64,000 nt of DNA, taken from assembly GCA_012845835.1 (NCBI GenBank), contig JABAKD010000021.1, forward strand, positions 1,563,185 to 1,627,184. Direction: 5' to 3'. Numbering within the stretch: the first letter of the stretch is position 1; each line of letters begins with the position of its first letter. The notes beneath the pieces were generated by a model that saw only the letters and a list, made by a program, of their open reading frames with translations, was not told the origin of the DNA and made no database searches. The translations under genes were made by a program, and so were the position numbers. The DNA comes from Undaria pinnatifida. Lineage: Eukaryota; Sar; Phaeophyceae; Laminariales; Alariaceae. Below are positions 4,526 through 55,097 of the stretch, piece after piece.

Positions 4526-5280
4526 GAGAAAAAGTGATCCCCATAAAAAGTCGATGTATATTTGTGACAAAAGTAGATCAGGTGGAGCAAGAATTCAAAG
4601 AAAAGCTGGACTGTTCCGCAAGCAATAAGCTGGACCGTCCGACCTCGGAGATGGCAGGGAAGCACCAACCGAGCGCTTTCAGCACAAAGATATTCGTAAG
4701 TAAGTCTATGATAACGCGGGACTCGCAGCTCGCGACTGCTGTTCTTGGTGCAGTCCCCCCATAAGGCGGTCTGAATAAGGGCTAGTAAGGCGGTATCCCG
4801 ATATAAGACGGTCAAACTCGCTTGGAACGACTGAGGAATTATTGTACTCATTACCGAAGATGTCAGGAAGCACTTTCAGCCCGTGACAGACGGCAATCTT
4901 CCAAGAATTTATATTGAATGGCGGCAAACGACTACTCGCAGGTTTTAGTCTTGGAACGAGTCGGTTTGACGCCCATGACCGCTGGACGTTTTCCCGTGAC
5001 TGACCGTCTCCCGACATCTTTGCTCATAACATGGATTGAATAAGGTAGCCTTCCCCAATGAGGCGGTCACATTGCGCTTTGACATCTCCGCCTCTGGACC
5101 CCTACCATTGGGTTGTTTGCAAGAGCAGCACAGAGCGGTATCGATATTTCGCTAAACCGAACCACCGTTCGCCCGGAGGGCGTCAGGGCTGACCAGAGCT
5201 AACGGGAGCTATTCAGGTCATAGCTGGTACGCCTCATAGCCTTCAACCCCGTGTACTTGATCTGGTGCGATTTGTTGGTC
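4526..5280. other. unassigned stretch with a dispersed repeat
   Basis: No gene could be supported. The segment 4935-5020 (GGAACGAGTCGG and then GACTGACCGTCTCC) resembles 46745-46825. The segment 4780-4850 (GGCGGTATCCCGAT) resembles 26895-26960. Both point to an old dispersed element whose ends were not resolved. Confidence 0.4.
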
Positions 5281-7764: not shown

Positions 7765-10700
7765 GTGAGTCTACGAAGTGTTGTAATGTTTGCCCTACGA
7801 CAGACTGTGGGTTTATGCCTTTGTAAGTATTTCGGGTCCAGGTAAAGCAATGAAGGAAAGGATCCGTGTCGGGGTGGAATTTCAAGGCAGAGAGCAAAAC
7901 GTTCCTGTGGTAGCTTCTTTTATGCACTCTGGTTTGCGCGGCTCGATGAACCTACAGTCTGTCCAAGCCACGACACCCCGATCCGGCCCATTACCAACCT
8001 ATTCGTAAAATATTTGCGAGCACAGCATCCAAGCCGGCCGAGTCAACCTAGATCATGTACAAGCTACAGCGTCCAGGCACGGTCATCTCATAGCGTTAGT
8101 GTTCAGGTTAGGTTTGGAGTTCTGCTCGGGTGGTTGGCGTCAGGCGGCACGGCCAAAATCCCGGTAAATACTCTCTATCGAGCTTCAAACAGGGCTTCAG
8201 TGTGGTCTTACCCACCGTTCTTTTTTTGGTGGTCGGTCCTCGGCCCGTACAGGTGGTAACTCCTAGCTCGGATACTCCACCTTCACGATGAGGTATTTAC
8301 CCCAGCGTTCGGGGTGGGTCCGAACAGCCGATGATGTTGGATGTGAACGACGATTGCTGCCGTAGGTAGGGGCATCACTTTTTTGCCAAAACTGTTTTAT
8401 GAATGACGAGGCTCCGAAGATCCTTCACCGATTCAGAAAATTGTCCGAAAGGTATTCTTGTATGGCGAGACGCGTGGTACGATAGAGGTGAACCAACCAT
8501 GGTATTTTTTTTGTGGTTCCTCAATTTGGGAGCTCAAGGCCTCTCCTCTCCCGAAAAACCGATTTGGAAACATATTGGAACTTCTACCGTATGAAAAATC
8601 CATTCTATTCATCGAGTTTGCACTGTTCGGGTCGGGTCGGGTCGGGTCAGGAGGCTTTGAAATATCACGGGCCGGACCGGGTCACTCTGTTCCGTGAAAC
8701 GCCCTCATTAATCCATCGTAAAGGCATCGTGTAAATTGTGTAGATTTGATGATAAATTAATCTTTGTGACTACTGGGACAGCAGCGCCAGGACAACGACC
8801 AGCAGCAGCACACCAGTTAAGTACCGAAAAGGTTGGATCGGGGTTGAGGTTGGATTGACAATAGTTTCAGCTGTCCACCAGCGTGAGATTCTAGCGAGAC
8901 CTACAACGTAGTATCTTTTTATGTGTTCACACGCTTGGGGTGCAGCAGATTCTAAGAATTTTCTGGGCTCCGAACATGAGCTGAGGGATTTTTTCCGCCC
9001 GAGACATGGCGTCGAAGACGTTCGTTCACGCAACCCGACCAACACTTGTATGCGCTAGTCGTAAGACAATGGTACTCCTAAAATTATCATACTGACCGAT
9101 AGTTCCTCCCTTGAGATGCTCAACCGGCGAGGTATACCTTTGTTTGGCTGTGAAAGTGCAACCCGTACCGTAGGATGAATCACTGCAGCAATGATTGTAC
9201 TGCTGTGGTTGATGTGGATTTTGTTCTCACGTTAACCCCTTTAGAGCCCCCAAATCCCTCCCTATAATAACTTCAAGTGAATTTGTCCCCAAAACGGGTT
9301 TCCAGTTGTAAAGGGGTTAAGCTCATCTCCCCGAGGTGAGCGCTAGTGACTACACGGCATTCGCGTACCCGGTACAGCAGTACACGGCGGTTACAAGGTC
9401 GGAAGAGACAGAGTTTCGTTCCCAGTGCCCCCCGACTTGCCACGCTGCTGTATGACAGGTGTGTCATCAATCCCTAATTGGCTCGGTGCATAGCCACACG
9501 GCATGTCCTAATCTAGGCCCCATTACTCTCCCGTGATGGCGCGGCACTTGGTAGGACGAGCTCTTGATACGATTTTTTGACAGTACTAAACTGGCACCGA
9601 GCGTTGTAGGTACCGTACCGGCGCAGAACCACGACGGTACCGGCCCCCCCCCTCCCCCTCCGCCCGCCCCCTAGGTTCCGCTTCTGGTCTGTTTTGGTGG
9701 TACCCCGGGGTATTGCGATGCTCGGGAAGACGAGACCGGCTCTAGTCTGGTCTGCCCTTACCCCGTGGTGGTGGTTGCATTTTTTTTTTCTTTAACGTTT
9801 GTAAGGAAGAATATTACTGAGCGCCCCGCATGCTTGAGGCGTCTCCGTCAGGAGTAGGAGCGGTGCTCCGTCTCGAAGGCGATGCGTGGTCAATAGTCAA
9901 TGGCTAAGGCAAGCAACGCGTGAGTTCGTCCTGCCTCGCCCCCCATCGCTCGGCTTGCGTGGTCAATGATCTAATGCCTGTGGCAAGCAATTAATGATTA
10001 CGCTGCACACCCCCCTCTCCCCTCCGCTGTTGACGGGGTCTTGTTCTTCTTCCCCGCCCCTGCAGTTCTGATCTGGTCTGTGCTTTCTCGTGTCTTCTCG
10101 TCTTGTTCTTGATTTATGCAGCAGACGCTAGGTAGCCTGATGTCAATCGACGAGCCGCTGAGTGATGCTGCTGTTGAGGCGAATGAGCTGTGGCTTAGAA
10201 CGGACCATCAGGATCATTTTTTCAAGGAAACGGATAGAATCGGCGTGGTTGTCGCGGAGTATATTGATCGACAGCGGGAGGAGGTGGGCGGTCGCGGATT
10301 GCGCAGCTCTTCTGGTTCCTCCTCGCGTCGCAAAAGCAACCGCAGCAACACAGCCACCACAATCGGCAGCAGCAACAGCAGCGGTATCGCCACAGCCAAC
10401 GTGAACGACAATAACAGCAGCAGCGGCAACAACCACGGCACCAGCAGCAGCAGCAGCGACACCACCTTTAACGCAACCTGTCATACCAACAGCAGCAGCA
10501 ATAGCAGCAGCAATACCCAAAAACGACGTAGCAATGCCTCCGGGGGTCTCGATAAGGAAAACGAACGGAGTTTGCACCATCAAGAGAGGCGGGATGGAGG
10601 GGGGCAGCGGGCCAACCAAGGACAGGATAGTGCTATTCGAAATGGCGGCGCTACTGGGCGGGGAGAAGGGGAAGAAGAGACTAGAGCGAGACCAATGAAG

Positions 10701-16700: not shown

Positions 16701-19700
16701 AGAAGCTACTTTTTTTACTTTCATGGCATGGGTTTTGGAAATAGGAAAATGGTATACCACGGTTTTTGAAAACCGCTCAGGCGTGTGCAATTGCTCGGTT
16801 CAGAAAATTAAACGATGCTTTTGTTTCGTGACCATGTCGACTCAAGACTGACTGCTGGCTGGGGCGGCTACGTTGGCTGACCTTAAGCTGCTGCCCGGTT
16901 ATTTGGTAGTCTATTAATCGCTACTTAGGATATTATTTACAACTGTTTAACAGTTGTTGCGTGCTGTTTCTTGCGAAGGCTCTATTGATAGCCGTTTGAC
17001 CTTTTGCTGGCGACTAGAAGGCGGAGCTATGGTAGAGGCGCACATCCAGGTGTGTCCGACAAGGGGAAGCACACGTAAGAGCTCGCATCGAACTTGAAAG
17101 GGTTGCCGAATGGTGAATCAACACTTCTTCAAGTGTTATCGTCATGGCCTTTCCCCGCATGAGAGGGAGATGATAGGATTCCGTACCCTGTACGAACGCC
17201 TCGCGATGAAATACGTCAGTCGTTGAATTTTTTCAGGATGTTATTTCATGCCTTGTATCCAACGAAACGAAGCCCAACTGTGTACGCACCTCCCGGGAGC
17301 GTGCGAGACTGCGGCATGCTATTAGACAAGCGCTTTTGGTGGGCTTGTGACCAACTCGTGTAAGAAAAAGATTTCGGAATCTACAAAAGTAGGTTTCAGC
17401 ACGTTCGCAGGCGTGTTTGAACCGGCGAACCGGAGAATCAGGCCGTTTTTTTTTTTTCAAAATCGGACTAGCTTTTTAGCGAGACGCATGCAACCACGTT
17501 TGTCGTTTTTTCAGGATAGGATGTAGCCCCAGGCTTCCCGACCATAGCCCCCACTGGGAATACGCGGCCTCGTCGGATCCAACTCCCAGACACTCGCAAA
17601 ACGATTTTTGGATGCGAATGAAATCCCCGTAAACGAGTTTTGGATGCGAAAAATCGCCGTTTCTTCCTCTTGTTTTGTAGAAGTAGCGTCCGATTTTGCA
17701 TTAATGGAACCTGCGCTGTACCGAGACGAAACCAACTCCTATCCTGAAGGAATGACCAACGTCGTTGGATGCGTCTCGACGATATGATTAGTCCGATTTT
17801 GATAAATGCAGGCCCGATTCCCCCCTCCCCCGGGTCAAACACGCCTGCGAGGGTGCTGAAACCTACCTGTTCAGTTTTCACAATCAATAATCAGATTGTT
17901 ATGTAATGTAGCCTCACAGACGGGAAGCTTGTCGAACATGAATTGTGATTGCAATGTTTTTAGATGTCGTACGGTGGATGTGCGCTATGGCCTGGGTATG
18001 GATGCGATAATGTGAAAATGTTTCAACATTTGGGTTAAGGTGTCCCGTCATTCCAAAAATGCTTTCGCCAAAAAGCGGTATACTTTAACGCCGCTATCGT
18101 AGCACACGTCCTTGGGCCCCACGAAACAAGCCGAGCTGATTCGGTGCCATTGGGGGGTGTCCGAAGGGGGTGTTTGCCTGCTGCGCCCGCGTTCTTCCGC
18201 CTCCTTGCTATGAAATTCGATGTATATGGCTAACAAGAAACAGCACGACAGCTCAAGGGCGCACAGAATTAGGGGAGTCTCTCGCGCGAGTTGCCCCGGG
18301 CCATTGCGAATAGCGGCCCCAAAAATGACCCCCCCCACCGTGGCCATCTGCCTGGCTGGGGAAAACCCGAGACGTGCTCCGTCCCGGCATAGTAGGGATG
18401 CGAGGGTCTTTGGTCATACGGCTACGGCCATGCATGAATGTCGAGTACACCCCCCTCTATCGTAGCCGCGATCTGGTTTGCCCCATTCTTTTTTTTGTTT
18501 TTTGCTCAAGACGTGGTATGATTATTCATCGGATAGCACTTTCGTTTTTTCCAGATCGGTCTCGGGTGAGGTATACCAACCATTGTTTATCAAGCCATCA
18601 TCCCCAGGGTAAAGAAAAAAATCCAGTGCACCTCTACCCTGTTATTTGTACTATTAGCAGCCAAGAGCAATGGTTGGAGCGCCTACGCCGTATATTAATA
18701 CCATTAGTACAAATAGTAGCGTGCGTCAATCGTTGCTTAGTTTTCGACAGGGTTTGACTCTGATGCCCCTTACCTCGTTGATCACCACCTGGTAGCATCT
18801 TTTCATTTTTTCCGTTTTTTCTTTTGTGACGTATGTCGCCCCCTTTTTGTCGTCGACAGGACTTCACTCTGAGGTCACTTTTCTCGTTGATTATGTTATA
18901 CCTGGTCGCATCTTTTCATTTTTTTTCCCGTTTTTTTCGTCTTTTTTTTTGTGCATGTATGTGGCCCCTTTTTTGTTGTTGTCATCCACTTCAGCAACCG
19001 TCTTTGTGTTTTCAAGTTATCGTGTTTTATTTAGGTTAAAATTGTCATCTCCATTGAACAAGCACGAAAGTCTGAAGACACGAAAACGGGCGGTCGAAGT
19101 AGATGACAACATAAGAGCGGCAACATGCACCGTACGAAAACATCAGGAGAATTTGACAAGCACAAAAGACGAAAACATGCGTTTGTATTTGCGTGCATGT
19201 GCGTCTTTTTTTATATTTTTTACCGTGATTCGGCTCGAGCGGCCTTTACTTACAGCAATACCGGTGGCTTATTGCTTGTGACAGGGTACCTTACCGCTTT
19301 TTCGAGAAAATGGTTGGCATACTCTTTTAAATTTTATCTACCCTAGCCCTAACCCAATGAAACGCGACAACCAACCAATATAGGGTGAAATCCACTTCGT
19401 CTCGTACACAGTGTGCGTCAACCATCGTCTCGAACAAGTGGTAAGCTCTACTGGCTTATTGCTTATTACATGGGGTAGTTCATCGGGTACAGTGGTACAC
19501 ATTATTGTTTTTTTTTCAACCATTTCACCCCCAGTGACGTCACTATGACGTCATTAATGACTACTACGACCGGGGTTTCGTATCGGTTAGCGTTAGGGTT
19601 AGGGTTAGTTCCATGGTTTTTATAATCTCAATGATGACGCATGCTTCGATATAGGGGCATACCTTTTTTTGGCTATTTTGTGTTCTGATTGACGGGGCTC

Positions 19701-22700
19701 CTTGACCTGGGCAAAATCGTCGGAAATAGGCACTTTTTTTTATTGCATGGTTTTCTCGTTGTATACCTAGGCCATGGGATTTTTCATCCGGTTTAGCAGT
19801 TTTATTTTTCTCTGAATCAGCTTCTGGGAGAGTTCTTGAGCTCCCCAAGTTGAGGAGCCTCAGAAAAAAACGGGTGCACCTCCTATCTTAGCACGAGTCT
19901 GATGTAAGTCACCCATCGGAAAAAATGGTCATTTTTGTCTTTGCATAATTCTCATTGTATACCTACTCGTAGGCGATGGGATTCTTCATCCGGTAGCAGT
20001 TTTTTATTTTTTTTCCCCGATCAGTTTTTGGGTTAAGGACATACTTTAACCCCTTTAGAGCCCCCGAACCTCTACCTATACTAACTTCAAGTTAAATTGT
20101 CCCCAAAAAGGGTTTCCAGTACTTAGGCGTTATCGGCTAAAGTGAGGAACCTTAAACATATAATTTGGTGTCCTTCTTAACCCATTTAGACCCTCCGAAA
20201 TCCCGCCTTATACTAGCTTCAAGTTAAATTTTACTCAAAAAGGGTTTCCAGTAGTGAAGGCGTTAAGCCCCCAAAGTGAGGAACCATGAAGTAAAAAGGT
20301 GATGTCCTTCTTAACCCTCTTTTAGAGCCCCAAAATCCCGCCCCATACTAACTTCAAGTGTAATTGTCCCCCAAAAGGGTTTCCAGTAGGGCCAGGCGTT
20401 AAGCTCCTAATGTGAGGAACCTTGAAGAAAAAATGATGAGTCCTTCTCACCCCTTTTAGAGCCCCAAAATCCAGCCCTATACTAACTTCGAGTTAAATTG
20501 TCCCCAAAAAGGGTTGTTTCCGGTACTGAAGGCAAAAGGGACATGTCTTAACCCCTTTAGAGCCGCAAAATCCCGCCCTATACACTGTACTAACTTCAAG
20601 TTTAATTGTCCCCAAAAAGGTTGCCAGTAGTGACAGGCGTTAAGCTCCTAAAGTGAGGAACCTGGAAGAAAAAATGTGGTGGCCTTCTTGACCGTTTAAA
20701 GCCCCAAAATTTCGTCCTATACTAACTTGAAGTTAAGTTGTCTTCAAGAAGAGTTTCCAGTTGTGGCAGGCGTTATTTGATCATAACCTGGTAGTGGTAG
20801 CAGGCATCTTTTCACTTTTCTTTATCTCTTTTTGGTACGTATGTCGGTTCTTTTATGTTGGCGACAGGATTTCACTCTTAGAGGTCGGTTCAGATGGAGG
20901 AAAAAACAACAAAAAATACAAAAAAGAAACGAAAATTAGAATTAAGGAATAGCCGAGTTTCATTGGTCAGATAGCAGAAACTAGCAGTAGAGATCCCGAT
21001 AAACCATTTTTGCTTTTTTTTTTTTTTTTTATCCCAAACCATTTAAAATAGCCGGGGTGAGAAAGACGAAATCTGGGGGGTAAACAGCGCAAAGAGAAAC
21101 ATAGGGTGACCGGTTCGCAGGCGCACGGTGGGTGGGGTAGTGCGTGAGGCGGCCACGGTGCTTATCCGCCGTCGAGGCCAGCATGCATGGGTAGGGTATG
21201 ACCAGGGGGTGGCTATGCGAGAAACCAGAGGGTCAGGACGTGGCTGTGGCGATATGTAGTTACGATGAGAGTGCCACCCAGTAGCCCAACGGCTGCCGAC
21301 AAACAACCATGACCAAAACACAACTTCAAGAGAACTCCCGGGGGAGCGGGATGGACCACGAGCACCGCCTACTCGCAGGGGTGCCTCGGGTGTGCGAGTT
21401 GTGTGTGTTCAGCTGCATCGTTGGGTGCATTCGCCGCGAATCGGGGTGCTGTGGCGGTTGAATTATTCTGTCAAGTTGCACCGCGAGTTTTGGCGTTAGA
21501 GATCAACAATTTCCAGTTTTGTTTTAACAGTTTTTGTTTCATGTCGTTTGGGAAGAACATGTTTTTTGCATCAAGAAATCTGAGGATCTTTCCTTTTTCG
21601 TTTTTTTCCCCCGTTTTTTTTCCAGCTTTTTTTCCCCCGTTTGGACGGGCCCCGGTGTCCCTTCTCTCGTTGATGAATACCAGGTACATGGTAAGAAACA
21701 TTTTTCATTTTTTTTTCTCTTTTTTTGTGGTGTATGTCGGCCCTTTTTTGCTGTCGTCAGCTTCCACCACGGTCTTCATGTTTTCAAGTTTTCGTGTTTT
21801 TTCTACGGTTAAAACTGTAATTTCCGTCGAAACAAACACGAAAACCTGAAAACACGAAAACGGGCGGTCGAAGCCGACGACCACATAAGAGGGACAACAT
21901 GAACCTTACGAAAAACAAAGAAAACTGCGACAAAAAAAAAAGATGGAAACATGTGTTTGTGTTGGCGGACATGCGTCCAAGGTGTGCGCCTTTGTTCGCT
22001 TCGGTGGATCAGCTCGAGCCACCTGTTTTTTCAGCGCCTTGGGCTTGTTATCTAGGATAACAATGTGTAGAATACTGGGAATTTTGTGTGTCCCACGAGT
22101 GTGCCCAGTGTTTCTGACAAGGAAGACATGAAAAATAAACTGCCCAAAAAATACCCTGCTGTTAACTATTGATACCTTAAACCTTTTTACGTTGTCTTAG
22201 CCCGGACGCCGTCCCCACACATAAAACTTCGTCCGGAAAAAATCGTTTTTTTCTTTTTGATAACTTGGTCAACCACCGTAACACTCTTGAATAAAACTTT
22301 CCCCGACTTCCATACCTTATCGTAGGATGATGATTCCATGGTGTCGTGAAGGCTGCTAACTACTACTCTGTTCATCTAGGCTCTTTTTTTCCTGTTCAGG
22401 TGTCTAGCTTGACTGCCGTTTTTCACGCCAGCTTGCTTGCATGGTGCGAATGTACACGGCATGGTATGCGTCGGTTACCTTTTGGCACGGTGAATGCCTA
22501 GGGCTGCACGCTGGTACAGTATATATTAATTATAATCGAGCCTGCTAGTAGGTTGCCAGTAGATTTGACATCTCGAGCTCACCTGAGAAACGCGCCACGT
22601 TATTAAACAAAACCCGTCTCATTGAGTTTTGGGGGGAAGTATGATAATATCTCGAGTTTACCTAAGAAATACGCCGCGTTACTGACCGACAGCCGTCCCA

Positions 22701-26788: not shown

Positions 26789-27022
26789 AGTAGCACCTTT
26801 GCACACGTTTGTTGCTGTAACACACCCGTGGTTTGTTTTTTCTGCATAATGGTGAATAACATGTTGTGCTGCACTTGTGCGGAAGGGGTTTCCCCCGATA
26901 AGGCGGTGTCCCGATGTAAAGCTGTCCGAGTCGCTTTTACGCGACGGGGAATTGCACTCTGGACCTGGATGAGAAAGGTGGGTTTCCCCAATAAGGCGGC
27001 CACGTTCCTCTGGCACACCACT

Positions 27023-27466
27023 TACGCGTGGTACGATAGAGGCATACCTTTTTTTGGCGAAAACACCTTTTTTGAATGCCGGGACTGCTTAACCCAAAAT
27101 CGTCGGAAATAGGCGTGCTACACGATAAAGGTATACCTTTTTTTTGCGAAAACACGTTTTCTGAATGACGGGGCTGCACAACCCAAAATCGTCGGAAATA
27201 GGCGTGCTACACGATAAAGGTGTACCCTTTTTTGGCGGAAACACGTTTTCTGAATGACGGGGCTGCACAACCCAAAATCGTCGGAAACTGACATTTTTTT
27301 TTGTTTGCATGATTTTCGTTGTGTACCTACGAAGCTCGTGGGATGTTTTCATCCGGAGACAGCAGTTTTATTTTTCTCCAAATATTTTCTTTTGGGACAG
27401 GTCTTGAGCCCCCAAAATTGAGGAGCCTCAGAAAAAAAGTGGTGCACCCCTGTCGTGGCACGCGTC
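27023..27466 (-). mobile_element. family A MITE with triplicated left end, target duplication CACT
   Basis: Flanked by CACT (27019-27022 and 27467-27470). The first roughly 88 bp (terminus, TATACC, GGCGAAAACAC, TGAATGACGGGGCTGC, CCCAAAATCGTCGGAAA) occurs three times in tandem, starting near 27023, 27111 and 27199. A normal interior and right end (GCACCCCTGTCGTGGCACGCGTC) follow. Confidence 0.85.
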
Positions 27467-27495
27467 CACTGTACCGACCGGTTCCCGGGTCGTTT

Positions 27496-33552: not shown

Positions 33553-36500
33553 CTGCATTTAGTTTTTTTAAACGGACGGTTAAGGGGGGGCGGTCCACGG
33601 AAATTATCGTGGCGATTGTCGTTTATGCTCATATTGAATGATCGCTTCTACTCTCCAGCCCCACTCGTAAGAGTTTTTATCCTCAGCGACCTTGTGGACA
33701 AGCCGTGGTCACAGGTGTCTTCATTTTTCCCCCTCCCCCGGTACTTGCCTCCGATTTTTATTGCGCATAGAGTCCAGAATCCCTGCTTTTTTGCTTTTTA
33801 GGGTTGTCGATTTGCATCGAATTTCGTACAAATCGGCGTGTGTTGGCGCATACTGCGAGATGTTGGCTTTTCACCCTATTTTTCTTTTCATGCTCCTCCC
33901 TTTAGGAGTTCGTTCTGTACTTCTCAAGACATCCCCAGCCTCTGAGAATCATTGTGACCTTAACCGGTTGAACTATCCCGAGCCCTAACCAAGTACATTT
34001 TTACGAACAAACACAAGAAGAACAAGAAAAAACAAAACTGGAGTTTTTCGACCATTTTTGGGTTAAGGAGCCCCGTCGTTTAAAAAAAAGATATTATTGG
34101 TAACACTTTGAGAAGTATTGTGCGATCAACTCGAAGAACCATTCCATGGGGTCTGCCTTCACGCCGAAAAAAGCGCAGGGAAAAAACTGAGTGGAATTCC
34201 GACGAGCTTGCGGTCGAGAACCCCCGTCGCTCAGAGAAAATGCAGTCCAAAAATGTGTTAGCTTTAGCGCAGCACGCGTCAGGGAACTCGGCAGTATGAT
34301 GCATGCTATGAATAGTCCCGTACCTTGGGTCCCATATCAGCCACTGGCTTGTAAGCAATGTTGTGTCCTTGCGAAGCTTTGGTTTCCCGCGGCGGAGGCA
34401 TTCGCTGGGGGGGGAGGAAGACGGGGGTCGGGCGGCAGCGTCGTCCAAATATTGGTTCGGTTAGGGACAACATAGTTGTGGTACATACACGAGCACATAG
34501 AGATATTGCTCTACATAACGAAAACGAAGCCCAAAAGTAGCACGAAAAAAATGTCAACACAAAGGCACATAAAATTGCCTTTGACAAGACCAACTAAGAT
34601 AGCACGGATGCCGTTCACGCCTGCTCCCCGCAGCAGTGGAATGTCCAATGAAAACTTTACGATACGCCAGCGTGGATAGAGTCAAGTTCCACCCCATTTG
34701 GAGGTGGGAGCAGACTCCACACGAAAACAAAAAACTCGTTGTACTACCGGCACTCCCATGCCATGGGACCCCGCAAGATTCCCAGCCTGAGGTTTCCGGG
34801 AAACATTAAACCAGGGAGCGGTTCTACGAACTTTATTGCCATTGTACAACTGGAAACCCGTTTTTTCGGGAAAGTTAATCAGAGTTAATTTTAGGGCGAA
34901 GCGTTTGGTTGCTCTAAAGCGGTTAACCCGTTTGGAGCCGTAAATCCCTCCCTATGCCTATTCCAAGTAATCTGTCCCAAAAAAACGGGTCGCCAGGTAG
35001 GTGTGGAGACGTTATGTGCACCGTTGTGTTTTCAGGGGCATCTTACGTGAGGACCTCCATCCCCTGGACCAAAAGAGCGTGATTTTGAGTGAACAAAAAA
35101 AGGTGCAAACCCGATGGCCAAACCCATGGCATATTACTAGGAACGAAAGATTTCTTGAGTGAACAAAGAAGAATGGCGATCCATACGATTGCGGGGTAAG
35201 GGGACTTGTCGTTCAGGGCATTTTGTTTTCCTTTGTCCGTGAACGCTGCTTCCATCGTATCACCCCGGTCGGACTGGAGCTGGTTTCACATCGCCCGTAG
35301 CGTTGTTGGTCGTTACTGTTGGAACCGTTGTACTCCCGAGGGATCCGGTGCCGGCAACGTGTTTCAGCTTCGCCAGGAGGTTGTGTGAGCGTTTTCGTGG
35401 CGTCGCCCCGCAAAAGGCACGAATGACCGAGGCTACGGCATGATATTAAAAGGTGGAATGGTATGATGATGTTATGATATACCCCCTTTTCACTGTGATA
35501 TTATCATACTATCATACTATCATACCATCATACTATCATACTATCATACTATCATACTATCGTGCCATCATACTCATACTATCATACTATCATACTATCA
35601 TACTATCATACTATCATACCATCATACTTTCATACTATCATACTATCGTACTATCATACTATCATACTATCATATTATCATACTATCATACTATCATACC
35701 ATCATATTATCATACTATCATACTATCATACCATCATACTATCATACTATCATACTATCGTACTATCGTACTATCATACTATCATACTGTCATACTATCA
35801 CACTATCATACTATCGTACTATCATACCATCATACTATTATGCTATCATACTATCATACTATCATAGTACCATACTATCATACTATCGTACTATCATACT
35901 ATCATACTATCATACTATCATACTATCATACTATCATACTATCGTACTATCGTACTATCATACTATAATACTATAATAATATCATACTATCGTACTATCA
36001 TACTATCATACTATCGTACTATCATACTATCATACTATCATACTATCATACTATCATACTATCATACTATCATACCATCATACTTTCATACTATCATACT
36101 ATCATACATCATACTATCATACTATCATATTATCATACTATCATACTATCATACCATCATATTATCATACTATCATACTATCATACCATCATACTATCAT
36201 ACTATCATACTATCGTACTATCGTACTATCATACTATCATACTGTCATACTATCACACTATCATACTATCGTACTATCATACCATCATACTATTATGCTA
36301 TCATACTATCATACTATCATAGTACCATACTATCATACTATCGTACTATCATACTATCATACTATCATACTATCATACTATCATACTATCATACTATCGT
36401 ACTATCGTACTATCATACTATAATACTATAATAATATCATACTATCGTACTATCATACTATCATACTATCGTACTATCATACTATCATACTATCATACTA

Positions 36501-37871
36501 TCATACTATCATACTATCATACTATCATACCATCATACTTTCATACTATCATACTATCATACATCATACTATCATACTATCATATTATCATACTATCATA
36601 CTATCATACCATCATATTATCATACTATCATACTATCATACCATCATACTATCATACTATCATACTATCGTACTATCGTACTATCATACTATCATACTGT
36701 CATACTATCACACTATCATACTATCGTACTATCATACCATCATACTATTATGCTATCATACTATCGTACTATCATACTATCATACCATCATACTTTCGTA
36801 CTATCATACTATCATACTATCATACTATCATACTATCATACTATCATACTATCGTACTATCGTACTATCATACTATAATACTATAATAATATCATACTAT
36901 CGTACTATCATACTATCATACTATCGTACTATCATACTATCATACTATCATACTATCATACTATCATACTATCATACTATCATACCATCATACTTTCATA
37001 CTATCATACTATCATACATCATACTATCATACTATCATATTATCATACTATCATACTATCATACCATCATATTATCATACTATCATACTATCATACCATC
37101 ATACTATCATACTATCATACTATCGTACTATCGTACTATCATACTATCATACTGTCATACTATCACACTATCATACTATCGTACTATCATACCATCATAC
37201 TATTATGCTATCATACTATCGTACTATCATACTATCATACTATCATACTTTCGTACTATCATACTATCATACTATCATACTATCATACTATCATACTATC
37301 ATACTATCGTGCCATCATACTCATACTATAATACTATAATAATATCATACTATCGTACTATCATACTATCGTACTATCATACTATCATACTATCATACTA
37401 TCATACTATCATACTATCATACTATCATACTATCATACTCGCACGAGTGACTCCGTGCCTCACTGACAAAACAAGTTTAGGCGAATTGTTCATGCCGCAA
37501 CATAGCTTACCGTTCCATATTGCGGATTTATCGCAAAATGAAAGCAGAACGCAAAGAAACAGGGAGCAACTCGTGAGAGTGACTCCGAGCAACCACCACC
37601 CAAACGTGACCCCCCAAGCCGTATCCCTGGTCGAATGTCGGAATAACGTTCTGAATAACATTCTGTAAGGTGCACAAAACTTCACGGTTAAGAGTGGATT
37701 GTATCTGCGGAACGTATATGGAACCTTTACTTGCATACAAAATTAAAATCAATCTTTCCACGCACGGCTGTCGTGTCGAGGTCGCTGAGTAAAACTCCTC
37801 AATATTCAATGACGATGATCATAGCGAGAAAGTCCTTCGCAACAATGTTCAACAGCAACAACAACAAAAAT

Positions 37872-37972: not shown

Positions 37973-40900
37973 ACCAATACCAAGTTAACCTTTCCGTGGC
38001 ACTCACGAACTTCTTGTCAAGGACGCTGACGTCGGGGTAGTCCTTCCCCTCCCGGGTGAAATCCGTGAATCGAGCCTCAATAAGCGCCGACAGCGGACAC
38101 GCCATCTTCTCCGACTTCGTTCCGTACGGCCCTTCGAACGGAATCTGTTTTCGTTTTTCGTTTTCCGGGTGTTTTTCGACGGCAGATAAAGGCTTCTTGT
38201 TTTGTTGTGTTCAACACTCCGACACTAGTTTGGTCTTGGTTTTGGTTTTGGATTCGCCTTTGTTATTGTTTTTCGTGATTCCCCCTCCTCCTTGTTTTTC
38301 CCTTTTAGGTAACGACCGTGAAACGAGCCTACAACAAACGCCGATATAGGACACTCCCTTTTTTCCGACTTCGTTCCGTATGCCCCTTCGAAAAAGATCC
38401 GTTTTCGTTTTCGTTTTCGATTTTATTTTTGACGCCGTTTTTGATGTCGTTTTTGGTGGTGTTTTTTGGTGGTGTTTTGCGGAGCCGAGTTTGTTTTTTT
38501 TGGTTTCTGCAATTCGTTTTCGTCCGTGCAAACCGACCCTCGACAAGCCTCGGACAGGGGACACGAGATGTTTTCCGACTTCGTTCCGTATGGCCCTTCG
38601 GACGTACAGTAGTACATATGTGCTTTCTTGGTTTGGGCAGTGAGTTACTTTTATTTGGTTTGGGCTTTGTTTTTTTTTTTGATTTTTTCTTTCACACTTC
38701 TTTTAAAGCCCTTCCCCTTGAACCGAGCCTCGACGCCTCCCCCCCCCCCCTCCCTACTTATGCCGCCTCCCACCCGAAAAAAAAGCGGAAGGACGCGTTA
38801 AAGTATCACGCACGGCACATCTCAATTCGCTACTGTGTGTTACGGTTATCCCAAAAGCAACATTTGCCCCAGGCTGCCGATATTGCGAAAACGTTAACAC
38901 CTAATTCTGACTGTTTTCTGGTGGTTTTGTTTGGTATCGTACCTTGTCTTTCTTTCTTGCACCTCCTTCGGTGATGTTGGATTGCGGCGGCGAGAAGCGG
39001 ATCTCCGGGTGGGCCTGCCAATTTCCGCGTGCCACAACAAAACAGGGAGGTAGCGGTATTGCGCGCTATCGAAATCGCCTTGCCAGCCGCGGCACGCAAG
39101 ATACCAACTTACGGTACGGAAAAAACGAGGAGGGAGTAGCCGACGGAATGTACCTGGAAAACAGGAGTTGCCGCTGAGCGCCACCGACACGCAGTTGGTA
39201 TGGAGTTCACATGTCGTTTGATTAGGTTCGCGAACGCACATTCACCACTCTTACAACGCATGAATCTCACGCCGTACATAAAAATCCGATGAGTGCTTTT
39301 TTTCGACTACATAAAGTCTTCCTTCAGAAAGTCTCCTTTCTTCCGGGCGTTTGACGCGTGCTACGACGATAGAGGTGCACCACTTTTTTTCTGATGCTCC
39401 TCGATTTGGGAGCTTAAGACATGTCCCAAAACTGACTTTATAGAAAATAAAACATCTACCGGACGAAAACTCCCAGGGCCTAGGTACGCAATGAGAATCA
39501 CGCAAAAAAATGGCCAATTATTTTTGTTTTTTCCCGACGATTTTGGGTTAAGGAGCCCCGTCATTCAGAAAAATTTTTCGCCAAAAAAAGGTTTACCTAT
39601 ATCGTAGCACGTGGCACTGGCTGCTTCAGGTTACAACCCCGAAATTCTCTCCCCCACGAGTGACGCTCGCAATATCTAGTGAAAGGGTGAATATTTGATA
39701 CCCATGACCGGTGGAAGAGGGTGCCATGCCAGTTTTTTTTTAACGGCCTCGGACTGTCTCTAAGCGCGAAGATCGTTATCGACCAATGACAAGACCTTCA
39801 AATATTTAATAATATTCAGGCTTTTTCCAAGCGGGGGCGAAAAACCAAAATTGCGCCGTACTTTGCATGAATCGGTTGGAGGTACCCCAAGGTATGTCTG
39901 TAGAAATATTCGCGAAAAAAAACGAAGATCTGATCTGGCTATGTTCTAGATTAAGCAGAATCTAGGGTAGAAACTGGATCCCACGCTGAAACCAAGTCAT
40001 TTGACCGAAACTAAAACCAAGGCATTTGAAGGAACTAACGTACCTGACTTTTTCTCACGCACAAAATTCCAAATGTCCACGCTGTTTTTGATAGATAAGA
40101 CCCTGACATTTTGTGCACACGTGTTGTACACGCCCATCCCGTGTTCTGACCTCCGTTTATTGTTATTATTGTTTTTTTGTTTCGACGAAAATATTTGGTC
40201 TTAGTCTTAGGTGAGGTGGTTCACATTAAAAAAAAAAAAATCCTTACGGACGAAAATTAGCAAAAAAAAAAATAATAATAATAAACGACAGGTGAGGTCT
40301 TCGCAAGGGCACATAGAAGACGTGTGCAAAAGAAAAACTTCATGGTACGAATCGACCAAACTGCGCGGACATTCGCCGGGGGGAAGACTTTCGGGCTTAA
40401 AACTTGAACCAGCCTATAGGGGAGTCACGTTTTTTTTTTTGGCATCTTCTTGGCGGTGGCCCGAGGTCACTCGCACAAATGACCCCTCCGCCCCCTTCGC
40501 GGTCATAAAGCCCTCGTGCTGTATTTCGTTTGCGACATGAGTCCACAATGAAATAGCCAAGCTACGCTGCACCAAAAAGAAATTATCCCCGTAAGCAATT
40601 TCGTCCATGATGAGGTAGAGGAGCTCTTGTGGGGATGGCTCAAGAGACCAGTAGCAGAACTGGGGGTATACCATGATTTATATCCCCCTTCCGCAGCCAT
40701 GATCGGGGACTGAATATTTTCCCGAAATGTCCCGTCACCCCGTCCTGCCTCTCGCGCGCGCTCAAGCGTTTTTTCAATTTTTATTTGCATTTGGCGCATG
40801 CTACGATAGAGGTGCACCAACTGTTGTTTTTTGTTTTTTGAGGTTCCTCGATTTTGGGAGCTTAAGGCCTCTTGAGACCTCTCCCGAAAAACTGATTTGG

Positions 40901-43900
40901 CGAAAAATGTAACTGCTACCGGATGAAAAATCTCATTGCCTTGGTACATACCGTGACTCCACCATGCAAAAAAAAATGGTCTGTTTGCGACGATTTTGGG
41001 TTAAGGAGCCCTGTCATTCCGAAAACAAAAAGCCAAAAAGTGATGCCTCTAGTGTCGTAGCATGCTTCTTTTGCTCTTACTAAGCGCGAGAGACTGCCGT
41101 CATTGGGTCTCGCCAGAGTTAAGCTCGCGAGCGACACACTCGTTCAACCAGTGCTTGGTAAAAATACTTGTTTCCAGTTTTAACCTTTTATCGACAGTAC
41201 AGGGGGATCTAGTAATGCGCTTACCGTTGGCGGCGGCGGCGGCGGCGGCGGCGGCCGGACGCCACGAGATGGAACCGTGATTTGTGAACTAAATTATTTT
41301 TAGAGTAATCTTTACACATGTTTCTTTTTGCGGTATTAATAAGACATCTTAACAAGTTGCGTTGTCGTCATATCGCAGTTTTTCCGAACCACTGGGTTGG
41401 TTTTTACGGTTTGAAGTAGCCCCCCGATGGTACTTCAGTGGTCTAACACCTGCTATAGCTAGCCTTCCAATCCATTTTCTTACTTGAAAAAACGGCAAAT
41501 ATGCATGTACCTTATAGCCTGCACATCAACGCAAGGAAACATGGGGAAGGTTATGAGGCGTTGGCACACCTGCACGAAGAGGCTTACATCCTTTGAGGCG
41601 ATGTTTGCCGTAGTGGGTAGTGGGTAACTGTTGTTTACGTCGATTTATTTTTCTTTCGTCAGCACCCGTAGCCGCGGTAGTATCGAATACCAGAACCCTT
41701 GAATTAAAAAACAGAGGCTTACCTCAAAATATGAGAATGAACCCGTTCTTAAGCTTTGAAGTATACATAAATATATGCCTGATAGTCGAGTGTTACACTT
41801 GAAAACAAACAAATGGGCAACAGCTATCGATCGTGCACCAAAAACGAAAAACTGAAATCAGGGTTGGTCGTCTCGAGAAACCGACGATAAGATAAATCAG
41901 CTTTTTTTGTTCGAGACACGCCCACCCCCCGCCCCCCCCCCTCCTGTCTGCCGAAATACAAAGATTTGTTGCACGCATCGCTTCGTTTGTAGATAATGCC
42001 AATGCCGTTTTTTAGTTTTTCCCGTGATCAACAGCTGCTTTCAACAACTTATTTTTTTCGAGGGTCATGATCCGGCCCACGCGTCGTGTTAGGACCTTTC
42101 GGAACTCTCCCGTTGTCGGGTCGGGTCGGGTCAGGAGATATGTCAAACCGTCACGGGTCGGATCGGACCACCCTCACCCATCCCGCCCCGACCCGTGAGA
42201 GGTGACCCGATCTGTAAAGGGCCCTGATTTTTTGTCCTATTTCAGGATAAACTTTGACTCTGAAGCACATACATCTTTTTTCGAAAAACACGCAAAAAAA
42301 GTGAAAAACGAAGTTTTTCTTTTTGTCCGATCTCGTCGGGAAAGCAACTATAAAAAATTGGAAAAGATCGGCTGTTACTTGGTGTCGCAAGCAGGACGTG
42401 GCTTCCTGGGATGGCGAGTCTGTGATTGTTTTTGCAGGAAACTCTTCATCGCTACTGCGCTCGGGGATCGAAGACACTGATCCGCTTTTGAACGGCCCAC
42501 GCGTTTTTCCAGCCAGTCCACTTGAAAGAGTGCGTCGGTAGGCTTTTTTAGTTGTTGCCGTGGAAGAAGAAGAGCTAACATACCTGCGCGAAGAGCCTGA
42601 CGTCCTTGGAGGTGAGGTTTCCACAGTGAACCGCGAGCGCGTTGGTCTTGATCAGATTTCGGTCGGATGCTTTAGCCGCCGACGGTTTCGACACGTCCCA
42701 GGTCGAAATCACTGCTCGAAATGGGCAGAACAGACGTGAAAAAAAAAAACGTGCAGATTAACGTACGTAGAAATGTTGCAAACATGCGCGTCGAAATGGG
42801 AAGGAACGTGCGTCAAAACGAGCAATAACCGCAGTCATTGGCGCAAAAAAACAAAATTGCACAACTTCTGTCGGAACGTAAATTTTTTTCGTCAAAACGC
42901 CCCAAATGTGAGTCGGGTTGGATCATGACCCGAACCACCGATCCGGTCAGGAGGTTTTTCAAGATCTCGCGGGTCGAATGGCGCCGCGTCAGGAGTTGTT
43001 GGTAATTCCGCGGGTCGGGTCGGGTTGAGTGAGGTGTCTTTTTTACCTCGCGGGGCGGGGCGGGTTACCATGTGGCTAAACCTGACCCGTGAAAGGACCT
43101 GGTCCTAACGCCTGTTGAACACCGCAGGACGCCCGTCAGAGCGTGGAGCAAAACACGTCTCAAGAACCTGCATGAAATAGGTCGAGACGTCAGATGAATT
43201 TCGTCACCCGCGTGCAAGCACACGCTCTCCCGAACGCGCGGTAGTTGCACCGCAACGTGCAGCAGAGGCATGGGCACGCTTTCCTGTTGTTGAAAAAAAA
43301 AGACGCGTGCTACGATAGAGGTATTATTAGCAGTTTTCGTCCGACTTTTTTTTTCTGAGTTACGGGGGCTCCTTAACCCCAAATCGTCGGAAACATGCCT
43401 TTTTTTTTTTGGCATGATTTTCGTTGTACACAGAAAGGCCAATGGGATTTTGCATCCGGTAGCAAAATTTTTATTTTTTTTCAAATTCGGTTTTTAGGGT
43501 TAAGAAGAGGACATGTATTAAGCTCCCAAAATGAGGAAAACCTCAGAAAAAAAACGTGGAGCACCTTCTATCGTAGCACGCGTCGGAAGTATTTGACGGG
43601 ACGGGGCGCAACGTCAAATTATGGTGGTACGTTCTACAGTAGGATCCTCTATCGGTAAGGGGGTTCTATGCTGTTTTTTCTTATATTTTATTGCAGTGGC
43701 TTGGGTTCATTCGCGCGAGTAACTCCTCCGTTTCCTTTGCTGTGCTACGCTTCTTGTTGTCCTGAAATGGCGAAACCAATGCCGCGTGCTACGGCAGAGA
43801 GGAGCACCACTTTTTTTTCTTTCCTGAGGTTCCTGGACTTGGAAGCTTTAGACCTCTCCCGAAAAATTGATTCGCGGGGGAAAAAAATAAAACCACACGA

Positions 43901-44988
43901 TGCAATTGATTGAAAGCTCCATGGCTGCCTAGGCACACAACGAGAAGCAATGCAAAAAATGAACAAAATGCCCTATTTCCGACGAAGTGCGGTTGAGGAC
44001 GCCCGTCAGGAACCCATCCTGGCGAAAGTCGAGGCGAAAGTTCAGGCGAAAGTTCAGGCGAAAGTCCAGGCGAAAGTTCAGGCGAAAGTCCAGGCAAAGG
44101 TCCAGGCGAAAGGGCTACCTCTATCGTATCATGCGTCCAATCCGCAATGGAGTGTAATCTATACGCTGCTACGAGCATGGCCCAAAAAAGTGTTTTTTTT
44201 CATCCCGTGAGACGACGCGTACTGCGATAGAGAGGTGCGCAGCACCACTTTTTTTTTCCGGGAATTCCTCAATTTCGGAGCTTAAGACCTCTCCCAAAAA
44301 ATTGATTTTTTTGGAAACCAAAAAAAAAAACAAGCTGCTACCGGATGGAAAAATCATCCTGTGGACCAGCTACACGACGACAATAATGCAACCAATTTGG
44401 GGTTAAGGAGCCTCGTGGATCAGAAAACAAAATAGCCAAAAAAAGGTATACCTCTTGGTAGTGAAAAATGGGGGGAACTCCCCCTACCTTGAACAAGAAA
44501 GTCCCCCAAAGAAAAGAGAAAGTGATGCTCGCTTTTGGGCGCGAACGCTAAGAAAATCGGACTGATAATGCAATCGTACTCAGCGGCGAGCGCTACTCCA
44601 AATCCTATTGAGTATCCTATGCCCAAGGGCTGTTCAAGGGTGGTGTCACAAAAAGAATCGGAGGCTCGCTCCAAACACGATTTTATTGCGGGCGGGTCAG
44701 GGTCTATCCTGTAGCTGTGTGAAGCAGCGGATTGGCCACCGACGGTTTGGGCACGTCCCATCTCGAGAATGCCGTTCGACGAGCGCAGCAATTGGCTCAA
44801 AAGCGAAACATATCAGAAGATATTGATGTGGTCGGGAAGAAAGCGAGATTGTTAACACCCCCGGGTGGTGTGTGTATCTCAACCCAAGTTCGGCAGGTCT
44901 CACCTGCTCCCGCGCCCTCGATGTCCTTAGTGACCAGGGCTCCGTATACGTGGACGGAAGATGGTAGCTCTCTCGTGCTCGTACGAAC
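33466..44988 (-). CDS. gene 2: five-exon gene on the minus strand, function unknown
   Basis: In transcript order the exons are 44988-44904, 42711-42584, 39014-38943, 38144-38007 and 33552-33466. Junction phases agree throughout (1 then 2 bases at the first, 0 at the rest) and all have GT/AG ends, including strong donors GTGAGA, GTATGT, GTACGA and GTGAGT. The joined product is about 170 residues from the first recognised exon, which starts in phase 0 and may not be the real first exon. No transmembrane segment or catalytic motif stands out and I do not recognise the family. Introns carry decayed duplicates of two exons, a 1.9 kb satellite and several MITEs. Confidence 0.5.
33640..33830 (+). 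repeat. direct repeat, copy 2 (with 30218-30345)
   Basis: This copy has a longer frame before the shared DKPWSQ (APLVRVFILSDLVDKPWSQ) ending at a GTGTCT donor-like site. The only coding difference in the shared codons is a synonymous Pro codon. Confidence 0.5.
34843..35000. mobile_element. two head-to-head family H units
   Basis: An inverted unit (ACAACTGGAAACCC to CTCTAAAGCGGTTAA) meets a direct unit (TTAACCCGTTTGGAGCC, CTCCCTATGCCTATTCCAAG, AAAAACGGG) at a shared TTAA near 34923. Confidence 0.6.
35462..37632. mobile_element. family B MITE distended by an internal satellite
   Basis: The left edge ATACCCCCTTTTCACTGTG matches the left arm of the family B copy at 59879 (GTACCCCCGTTTTCACTGGT). 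The right edge from 37437 (CTCGCACGAGTGACTCCGTG...CCTCACTGA, ATTGCGGATTTATCG, CGTGACCCCCCAAGCCGTATCCCTGG) matches its right arm. The only material between them is the 8-bp satellite. Confidence 0.65.
35500..37438. repeat. 8-bp satellite (CATACTAT)n with about 455-bp higher-order structure
   Basis: About 1.9 kb of CATACTAT units with scattered variants (CATACCAT, CGTACTAT, CATACTTT). The variant block ACTATAATACTATAATAAT recurs at about 35961, 36417, 36871 and 37325, giving a 454-456 bp higher-order period. The open frames that read through it are artefacts of a repeat free of stops in some frames. Confidence 0.95.
37850..37972. repeat. (CAA)n microsatellite
   Basis: About 120 bp of CAA units, just beyond the donor of the gene 2 exon at 38007-38144. 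Confidence 0.95.
38007..38144 (-). CDS. gene 2, exon 4 (46 codons)
   Basis: Bounded by GAAAACAG| and |GTGAGT on the minus strand, phase 0 both sides. Encodes IPFEGPYGTKSEKMACPLSA, then LIEARFTDFTREGKDYPDVS and VLDKKF. Two upstream copies (38318-38425 and 38535-38617) retain the EGPYGTKSE-like frame, which supports the reading frame chosen. Confidence 0.65.
38318..38425 (-). pseudogene. decayed duplicate of gene 2 exon 4, copy 2
   Basis: The minus-strand frame reads FFEGAYGTKSEKRECPISAF, matching exon 4, but the 3' half is replaced and no donor follows at the right place. Confidence 0.75.
38535..38617 (-). pseudogene. decayed duplicate of gene 2 exon 4, copy 3
   Basis: The minus-strand frame reads SEGPYGTKSENISCPLSEAC. 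The acceptor has been lost; the 3' half differs from exon 4. The unit with flanking T-rich sequence repeats about every 220-260 bp. Confidence 0.75.
38943..39014 (-). CDS. gene 2, exon 3
   Basis: Acceptor TTGGCAG| after a T-rich tract and donor AAG|GTACGA on the minus strand. Encodes AHPEIRFSPPQSNITEGGAR then KKDK, phase 0 at both ends. An alternative acceptor at 39065 would extend it by 17 codons in frame. Confidence 0.55.
39113..39153 (-). CDS. possible small exon upstream of gene 2 exon 3
   Basis: A 41 bp block between a strong acceptor (TGTTTTCCAG|) and a strong donor (|GTAAGT) on the minus strand. Its length is not compatible with simple insertion between gene 2 exons 2 and 3, so it may be an alternative or unrelated exon. 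Confidence 0.3.
39353..39614 (+). mobile_element. family A MITE, complete
   Basis: Left GACGCGTGCTACGACGATAG; internal GATTTGGGAGCTTAAGACAT, GGGCCTAGGTACGCAATGAG, GGGTTAAGGAGCCCCGTCAT; right ATATCGTAGCACGTGGC. Confidence 0.85.
40412..40698 (+). mobile_element. family B MITE, diverged full-length
   Basis: Left AGCCTATAGGGGAGTCACG; internal GGTCACTCGCACAAATGACC, TTGCGACATGAGTCCACAAT and AGCTACGCTGCACCAAA; right TATCCCCCTTCCGCAGCC. The order and spacing match 49681-49940. Confidence 0.65.
40793..41068 (+). mobile_element. family A MITE, complete
   Basis: Left GGCGCATGCTACGATAGAGG; right block GGGTTAAGGAGCCCTGTCAT and TCGTAGCATGC. Flanking ATTT (left) and TTTT (right) may be a decayed 4-bp duplication. 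Confidence 0.85.
41228..41257. repeat. (GGC)n microsatellite
   Basis: About nine GGC units. Confidence 0.9.
41570..41627 (-). pseudogene. partial duplicate of gene 2 exon 2 (3' half)
   Basis: The minus-strand frame reads ANIASKDVSLFVQ before a GTGTGC donor, parallel to GNLTSKDVRLFAQ before GTATGT in exon 2. The acceptor-like AACAACAG| precedes it. It could be spliced, but the 5' half is unrelated. Confidence 0.65.
42060..42229. mobile_element. GGGTC-rich MITE (family G)
   Basis: Starts AGGGTCATGATCCGGCCCAC and ends GACCCGATCTGTAAAGGGCC then CTG. Internal TCGGGTCGGGTCAGGAG. Confidence 0.65.
42584..42711 (-). CDS. gene 2, exon 2
   Basis: Acceptor CGAGCAG| and donor CAG|GTATGT on the minus strand. 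It enters two bases into a codon (G from the previous exon gives Val). Encodes ISTWDVSKPSAAKASDRNLI then KTNALAVHCGNLTSKDVRLF and AQ. A partial 3' duplicate lies at 41570-41627 and a 5' duplicate at 44728-44770, both supporting the frame. Confidence 0.65.
42905..43105. mobile_element. GGGTC-rich MITE (family G), diverged
   Basis: TCGGGTTGGATCATGACCCG at the left, CCTGACCCGTGAAAGGACCT at the right, with GGGTCGGGTCGGGT inside. Confidence 0.6.
43303..43584 (-). mobile_element. family A MITE, complete
   Basis: Left GACGCGTGCTACGATAGAGG and right CTTCTATCGTAGCACGCGTC. Internal CCTTAACCCCAAATCGTCGG and GGGATTTTGCATCCGGTAGC. On the minus strand its left end is directly followed by TTCAACAACAG and a frame starting ESVPMPLLHVAVQL (43280-43170), a possible but unconfirmed exon. 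Confidence 0.9.
43646..44195 (+). mobile_element. family B MITE, split by a family A insertion
   Basis: Left part to 43780 (TTCATTCGCGCGAGTAACTC ... GGCGAAACCAAT) and right part from 44138 (CAATCCGCAATGG...CGCTGC.ACGAGC...CCCAAAAAAGTG) align as one continuous family B interior (compare 49790-49855) once 43781-44137 and one CAAT are removed. Confidence 0.75.
43781..44137 (+). mobile_element. family A MITE with internal 12-bp minisatellite, target duplication CAAT
   Basis: Flanked by CAAT at 43777-43780 and 44138-44141. Near its right end (about 44020-44112) the motif CAGGCGAAAGT(C/T) is repeated about eight times where other copies have one TTTTCGCCAAA-like block. The open frame reading KVQA repeats is a by-product. 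Confidence 0.85.
44214..44463 (+). mobile_element. family A MITE, complete
   Basis: Left GACGCGTACTGCGATAGAGA; internal TCGGAGCTTAAGACCTCTCC, TTGGGGTTAAGGAGCCTCGT; right GGTATACCTCTTGGTAG, decayed. Confidence 0.75.
44728..44770 (-). pseudogene. partial duplicate of gene 2 exon 2 (5' half)
   Basis: The minus-strand frame reads RWDVPKPSVANP, parallel to TWDVSKPSAAKAS in exon 2. It soon meets a stop and has no donor. Confidence 0.6.
44904..44988 (-). CDS. gene 2, exon 1 of the recognised set
   Basis: Acceptor CGCCTCTCAG| and donor GCAG|GTGAGA on the minus strand. Encodes VRTSTRELPSSVHVYGALVT then KDIEGAGA and one extra base that pairs in phase with exon 2. Because an acceptor precedes it, at least one more upstream exon is expected and was not found. 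Confidence 0.5.
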
Positions 44989-45179: not shown

Positions 45180-45290
45180 CACTAGTGAAATTGAGCCCCT
45201 CGCCCGAGTAATTCTGTACCTCACCTCGAAAACAAATGCGTTCATCGTTTTTTGCTTGGCACAGTGTAGCTAGCCATTCCATTGCTGATG
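45180..45290. mobile_element. family B fragment
   Basis: TTGAGCCCCTCGCCCGAGTA, CTGTACCTCAC and AAAACAAATGCG match the family B interior. Another fragment lies at 45615-45680 (GGGGGGTCACTTGCGCGAGC) and another at 47880-47935. Confidence 0.55.
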
Positions 45291-45299
45291 ACGCGTTCT

Positions 45300-45577
45300 A
45301 CGATAGAGGTATACCTATTTTTGGCGAAAATATTTTCTGAGCGACGGGACTCCTTAACCTACTAATACTATCGCCGGAAAATGCGCCCCATTTATTTTTG
45401 CATGCTGGAGTATCGTTGTATACATAAATAGTCCATGGGGTTTTTCATCCGCGATAAAGCAGTTTTTTTTTTTTCCAAAACTGGTTTTGGGGTTAAGAAG
45501 GACATGTCTTAAGCCCCGAAAGGGAGGGGCAGTATTAAGGAAAAAAAAAGTGGTACGCCTCTATCGTGGCACGCGTA
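45300..45577 (-). mobile_element. family A MITE, complete, target duplication TGAT
   Basis: Flanked by TGAT (45296-45299, 45578-45581). Left GACGCGTTCTACGATAGAGG; variant block CTACTAATACTATCGCCGG; right GCCTCTATCGTGGCACGCGT. Confidence 0.9.
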
Positions 45578-45684
45578 TGATTCACATGGCAAATTGAAAA
45601 AAGTACGAAAACGAGTCGGGGGGTCACTTGCGCGAGCGACCCCGATCCAATGCAAACAAATGCCTAGGGTAACGTATCCTTAAA

Positions 45685-54596: not shown

Positions 54597-54859
54597 GAAG
54601 AACTGATTCTACTACTCTGCCCCCCCGCCCCCCCAAACAACCAGCGATTTTCAATAAATGAACGTTCCGTGGCTGCTCGATACGAGGAAGGATGCTGTGG
54701 ATACCATATCTTCACATAATTTATTGTTCGCGAAAGACTGTCGATCGATGACGTCGGGGTGGAAAAGGGCACAGTACTTCAGGAGATACGGTCGTGGGCT
54801 GGTTTCAAAACCGGCGATTTCGTTCAAGAAACGTTGGGAGGGGCTACCACCGCAGAATG
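54597..54859 (+). mobile_element. family C MITE, complete
   Basis: Left AACTGATTCTACTACTCTGC; internal CGTGGCTGCTCGATACGAGG, GATGACGTCGGGGTGGAAAA, CAGGAGATACGGTCGTGGGC, AAAACCGGCGATTTCGTTCA; right GGGGCTACCACCGCAGAATG. Confidence 0.8.
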
Positions 54860-54888: not shown

Positions 54889-55097
54889 TATTTTTGCCAA
54901 AATGTGGTACACCGTGATGCCTCTACTGTAGCACGCGTCGTTGGGGGCTAAGGAGACCCATCACCCGAGAACTATTTTTGCCAAAATGTGGTACACCGTG
55001 ATGCCTCTACCGTAGCGGTTTAAGGAGACCCATCACCCGAGCTCTATTTTTTCCAAAATGTGGTACACCGTGATGCCTCTATCGTAGCACGCGTTTT
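54889..55097 (+). repeat. three tandem family A right ends
   Basis: The block CCAAAATGTGGTACACCGTG, ATGCCTCTA(C/T).GTAGC, GGAGACCCATCACCCGAG occurs three times at about 65-70 bp spacing (near 54896, 54966 and 55052). Confidence 0.8.

Follow-up and report, generated by a model that had tools for sequence, protein, structure and literature searches.

A 249-bp MITE family with a 4-bp target-site duplication in the genome of Undaria pinnatifida

The stretch of DNA analyzed here, referred to as the window, comprises 64,000 nucleotides of Undaria pinnatifida (C28:1563185-1627184) and carries many copies of a short repeat, family A; the genome searched comprised 511,146,479 bases in 68 contigs. The 20-base end of the repeat, GACGCGTGCTACGATAGAGG, was detected at 31 sites of the window at up to 3 mismatches, as compared with none in each of 100 shuffles. 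Using a profile derived from genome-wide copies, 48 non-overlapping stretches were identified in the window, 18 of which are near full length, in good agreement with the "about twenty near-complete copies" proposed in the first-pass annotation. With an earlier version of the profile, family A covered 14.6% of the window and the reversed window gave no match. The window is enriched for the family, since it contains 17 sites of the end 16-mer at up to one mismatch, that is 266 per Mb versus 32 per Mb genome-wide.

Fifteen pairs of family A ends were compared in the window for the four bases flanking them on each side. The match was exact in 5 pairs, three of four in 2, two of four in 2, one of four in 3 and zero in 3, the chance expectation for exact matches being about 15/256 = 0.06. 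All five duplications quoted in the first-pass annotation are present. They flank the elements at 19636-19899 (minus strand; TGAT at 19632-19635 and 19900-19903), 27023-27466 (minus strand, 444 bp; CACT at 27019-27022 and 27467-27470), 43781-44137 (plus strand; CAAT at 43777-43780 and 44138-44141), 45290-45577 (minus strand; TGAT at 45286-45289 and 45578-45581) and 55801-56041 (plus strand; AAAT at 55797-55800 and 56042-56045). The second TGAT had been placed at 45296, a slip of ten bases for 45286. The copy with the top profile score in the window (209.2), at 39353-39614 on the plus strand, has the unmatched flanks GTTT and ACTG, and a near-full-length copy at 60987-61251 (plus strand, score 206.9) has TCCT and GAGG, also unmatched.

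Two of the long copies in the window carry internal or terminal arrays. The element at 27023-27466 consists of a MITE body of normal length, about 265 bp (27202-27466), and two additional tandem terminal units of 89 bp, so that its outer 89 bp occur 2.9 times in tandem, and the element at 43781-44137 contains an internal array of eight 12-bp units. A family A terminus at 54944-55094 (plus strand) is formed by two tandem 72-bp units without a MITE body. Genome-wide, perfect terminal units in tandem were observed at C30:3757678 (three units, 98-bp step), C32:28532858 (three units, 66-bp step) and C32:9248871 (two units, 115-bp step). Slippage or unequal exchange is the probable source of these tandem units.

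Several other repeats lie in the window or within copies of family A. Two facing elements at 1800-2549 and 3100-3865, with GGCCATTTCTTATGC ends, are 98% complementary over 624 nt, and their flanks (TGA/TGA and TAA/CAA, respectively) are as in an element with a 3-bp duplication (Harbinger-like). An 83-nt repeat present three times at 4022-4532, with a GGTTCGAATCC-like box, resembles a tRNA-derived SINE; no tRNA was predicted in the window by ARAGORN. A satellite with an 8-bp unit (ATACTATC), in about 244 copies, occupies 35498-37439. Outside the window, the family A copy at L011:1566-1970 is broken by a short TG...CA element with repeated termini and CTCT flanks, similar to a miniature LTR retrotransposon. 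The family A copy ending at position 1518 of L018 contains an insertion with TTCTACGGTAGCCCCCCC and TTCTACCATGGACCCCC ends and apparent TCG/TCG flanks, and repeats related to this insertion seem to occur around positions 54764 and 55367 of the window.

The family A consensus is 249 bp long and is bounded by a perfect 21-bp terminal inverted repeat, GACGCGTGCTACGATAGAGGT, beyond which the two halves resemble each other only loosely. The ends are GAC...GTC; one terminus reads on as GGTGCACCACTTTTTTT, and the opposite terminus has two forms, GGTATACCTTTTTTTGGCG and GGTAGCACTTTTCGTCTGAA. In a pooled set of 99 pairs, sought within limits of 150-460 bp, the lengths range from 241 to 444 bp, with 5th and 95th percentiles of 248 and 341 bp. 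Within the 240-440 bp described in the first-pass annotation, lengths above about 300 bp are atypical. The mean identity of the copies to the consensus is 0.848. Because they are thus about 15% diverged, the family looks long inactive and no longer active. The two best-matching among 57 elements share 0.872 identity, and no very recent copy was seen among these 57, a sample selected by perfect 16-base ends.

The end 16-mer was found at 16,584 sites of the genome at up to one mismatch, and its reversed control at 1. The 15-mer GTGCTACGATAGAGG occurs in 20 stretches of viral contigs, where the family A sequence does not continue past the 15-mer, and these matches were taken as chance. According to the part of the published report on an Undaria pinnatifida assembly used here, 36.1% of that genome consists of "Unknown" repeats and 2.0% of DNA transposons (PMC7058681). 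We found no paper in the open-licence literature on a brown-algal MITE with a target-site duplication.

In order to tabulate the duplications beyond the window, as the first-pass annotation had proposed, elements were collected with a pattern that required an exact 16-mer at each end, separated by a gap of 205-235. The pattern matched 131 times in forward and 130 times in reverse orientation, and the elements listed were mostly matched on both strands. The matches listed represent 59 distinct places, of which 57 were used (two on C25 were omitted). Four-base flanks matched exactly in 23 of these 57 elements, at three bases in 17, at two in 6, at one in 10 and at none in 1, and the mean flank identity was 0.724 at length 4, as compared with 0.21-0.29 at lengths 2, 3 and 5 to 10. 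In a less stringent set of 33 pairs collected before, 10 of the 4-bp duplications were exact and the identity was 0.629. The pooled set, which comprises 99 distinct pairs in the sampled sequence and includes most of both the 57- and the 33-member sets, contains 34 exact duplications, 31 pairs matching at three of four bases, 10 at two, 18 at one and 6 at none. Its mean 4-bp identity, 0.674, lies about 18 standard deviations above the 0.266 ± 0.022 of shuffled partners, and none of the other lengths compared (2 to 10) approaches the identity at length 4. Mean identity at lengths 7 and 8 is about 2 standard deviations over the shuffled partners, with a single exact case, the copy at L014:2124-2376, which has a 7-bp match in place of the 4-bp one. 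The preferred length is thus clearly 4 bp. The 34 exact duplications represent 32 different tetramers with a slight A/T lean, and TTAA is not among them.

Empty sites were searched by joining the flanks of 64 insertions with three or four matching duplication bases and aligning them to the sampled sequence; weak, self-matching or low-complexity junction alignments were excluded from the count. Four of the 64 joined flanks gave an uninterrupted paralogous empty site with a single target, which has one altered base in some of the cases. The empty site for the L053 insertion (TGCA) lies in L043, with 80% identity over 161 bases. That for L071 (CTGT) lies in L009 (85% over 109 bases, a gap of 5 bases lying close to the junction) and also in L108, L060 and L015. 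The insertion in L072, whose target is CTCG, corresponds to positions 9004-9131 of the window itself (plus strand, 76% over 132 bases), where CTCC is found. Finally, the window element at 45290-45577 (TGAT) has its empty site in L043 (79% over 47 bases, target changed at one base). The check for empty sites suggested in the first-pass annotation therefore returned four convincing cases, with copies lying in unrelated flanks, and its description of a MITE with a fixed 4-bp duplication is borne out by these sites and by the 99 pairs genome-wide. Family A qualifies as a MITE in its form, its duplication and its copy number.

A sister family, family C, has the ends GACCAAGG... and ...GACCCAGG and an element length of about 269 bp. 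Its end forms GACCCAGGCTACGGTAGGGG and GACCAAGGCTACGGTAGGGG occur at 3,317 and 3,987 sites, respectively, at up to one mismatch, the two sets overlapping. In the window, one copy at 59879-60145 (plus strand) is flanked by TAAG on both sides, and another at 49676-49945 (minus strand) has the flanks CGCG and GGGC without a matching duplication. Elsewhere, family C is present in two of five near-identical repeat copies (97.8-99.8%) and absent from the other three; the empty site has one AAAC and the filled site two. Both filled copies lie on C19, separated by 20 kb, and may represent one insertion that was later duplicated. The 4-bp duplication was found in two of the three family C insertions examined. 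Although its body differs from that of family A and its end sites are fewer, family C has the same terminal core, GAC-N4-GCTACGRTAGRGG, and a 4-bp duplication. This common core and the equal duplication length suggest that families A and C were served by one kind of transposase.

Longer copies that could encode such an enzyme were searched by pairing convergent ends. In the window and 41 loci, 255 convergent pairs 0.5-15 kb apart gave one exact 4-bp match, with 1.0 expected. This match involves the left end of the convergent pair C1:6907227/6911234, an end that is already partnered at a distance of 268 bp, and the pair was rejected as a longer copy. Among the matches listed, about 100 for each end, inspection by eye revealed no convergent pair from MITE size up to 15 kb for the ends L (726 sites), R-A (442) and R-C (148). 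For family C, inspection by eye of the matches listed on C1 and C2 revealed, at C1:15257901-15260167, one pair of exact ends that face each other over 2,267 bp and have no nearer partner, which are equally likely to represent a longer family C element or a nested insertion. The genome contains at least 138 DDE_Tnp_4, at least 111 MULE and at least 11 DUF7869 matches. One DDE_Tnp_4 match (C2:16242905) is separated by 3.8 kb from the family C end at C2:16239133, the sole near case seen by eye among the matches listed. Many of the DDE_Tnp_4 matches share a 181-aa frame with one TAG, as if they belonged to one high-copy decayed element.

The near-identical DUF7869 matches sit in a repeat measuring about 13.4 kb (L117+L114+L119 on C30 and L118+L116+L120 on C48), which is present in several copies of about 98% identity. 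DUF7869 is presumably a transposase, and the repeat is possibly a large DNA transposon. All three copies that were read terminate on the right in CTGTT. One of them has ATAT on both sides, but its left break, which coincides with an internal AACAG, falls within sequence common to the other two copies. A PDB search with one DUF7869 exon gave five matches at E 0.76-0.99, which were taken as chance. Because its ends are unlike those of family A, this repeat was rejected as the partner. In these partial genome searches, no transposase linked to family A ends was found among the matches listed, and the autonomous partner that the first-pass annotation expected in this genome is neither supported nor contradicted by them.

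Taken together, we interpret family A as a non-coding MITE of about 249 bp whose mobilization most likely depended on a DDD/E-type cut-and-paste transposase acting in trans, a reading to which we assign a probability of roughly 0.94. Such an enzyme would make target cuts staggered by 4 bases, showing little if any preference for sequence, and join the element to the cut DNA, and gap repair at the staggered ends would then generate the 4-bp duplication. The evidence against this reading is that no transposase was tied to the family A ends among the matches listed, that 24 of the 99 pairs match at none or one of the four bases, and 10 more at two, and that identity is slightly raised at lengths 7 and 8, with the 7-bp match of L014:2124-2376. 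The quarter of pairs lacking a duplication, together with the tandemly repeated ends of some copies, would fit a repeat other than a transposon, either a satellite or a product of segmental duplication, whose flanking matches are due to chance; the 18 standard deviations over shuffled partners, the unrelated flanks and the empty sites refute that explanation, which we consider extremely improbable.

Which enzyme moved family A is a separate question. We regard it as likely that the partner belonged to a known superfamily able to leave 4-bp duplications (Sola, or a relative of Harbinger/IS5 or MuDR) and is decayed, lost or unreached by the search. The duplication lengths given in the parts of PMC10045372 and PMC10741241 used here are compatible with this, the genome is well supplied with DDE_Tnp_4 and MULE matches, and the copies of family A are old; against it, none of these matches could be tied to family A or family C ends. 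With copies this far diverged from the consensus, the partner may plausibly have decayed or been lost. An undescribed brown-algal transposase lineage is an unlikely source. It would account for the failure of the partial search to find a longer copy with a known transposase, and for the end core and duplication length common to families A and C, yet that search gave nothing positive in its favor. It is correspondingly doubtful, though conceivable, that the two families are satellites of such a lineage, marked by the GAC-N4-GCTACGRTAGRGG core and a sequence-neutral 4-bp duplication, and that their MITEs account for a noticeable part of the unclassified repeats in kelp genomes. Family A alone is an ordinary MITE. 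Its missing enzyme is of mild interest, and the ends and the 4-bp duplication provide a handle for tracing it. With defined ends and duplication length, the family can also serve as a library entry for repeat annotators.

In comparison with MITEs as a class, as described in the part of PMC10741241 used here, family A shares the length below 500 bp, the inverted ends, the target duplications, the thousands of copies and the lack of a transposase frame, and no feature of the family falls outside the class. The first-pass annotation had suggested that a 4-bp duplication narrows the choice to few superfamilies; this does not hold, since the papers allow up to 4 bp in several of them. In the sections of PMC10045372 and PMC10741241 consulted, 4-bp duplications are given for Sola, Ginger1, some Ginger2, some IS481EU families and piggyBac, duplications of up to 4 bp for Harbinger/IS5 relatives, and of 4-10 bp for MuDR/IS256. 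The 4 to 6 bp reported there for Ginger1 and Ginger2 are compatible with family A, whereas Ginger elements have TG...CA ends and inverted repeats of 40-270 bp, as opposed to GAC...GTC ends and 21 bp in family A, and Ginger was therefore rejected. Specificity for TTAA, which is the Kolobok duplication in the part of PMC9587614 available, likewise argues against piggyBac and Kolobok, as TTAA is absent from the 34 exact duplications. Mariner/Tc1 was rejected because of its TA duplication, the length in family A being 4 with 32 different tetramers. CACTA/Chapaev ends begin with CAC. Those of family A begin with GAC, and these superfamilies were also rejected.

The remaining candidates agree with family A to different extents. 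Its duplication corresponds to the 4 bp of Sola, for which the consulted part of PMC10741241 also gives inverted repeats of at least 11 bp; Sola elements have a DDD transposase, and the comparison with family A concerns the duplication and the inverted repeat. For Harbinger/IS5 relatives (PHIS), with duplications of 0-4 bp, the 4 bp of family A represent the upper limit. A tandem terminal unit, as seen in some family A copies, is known from MULEs with tandem TIRs, mostly in non-autonomous elements (PMC3310237, in the part used here), although family A differs in that its inverted repeats are short, its duplication is 4 bp and its units measure 66-115 bp. The superfamily of family A may thus be Sola, or one related to Harbinger/IS5 or MuDR.
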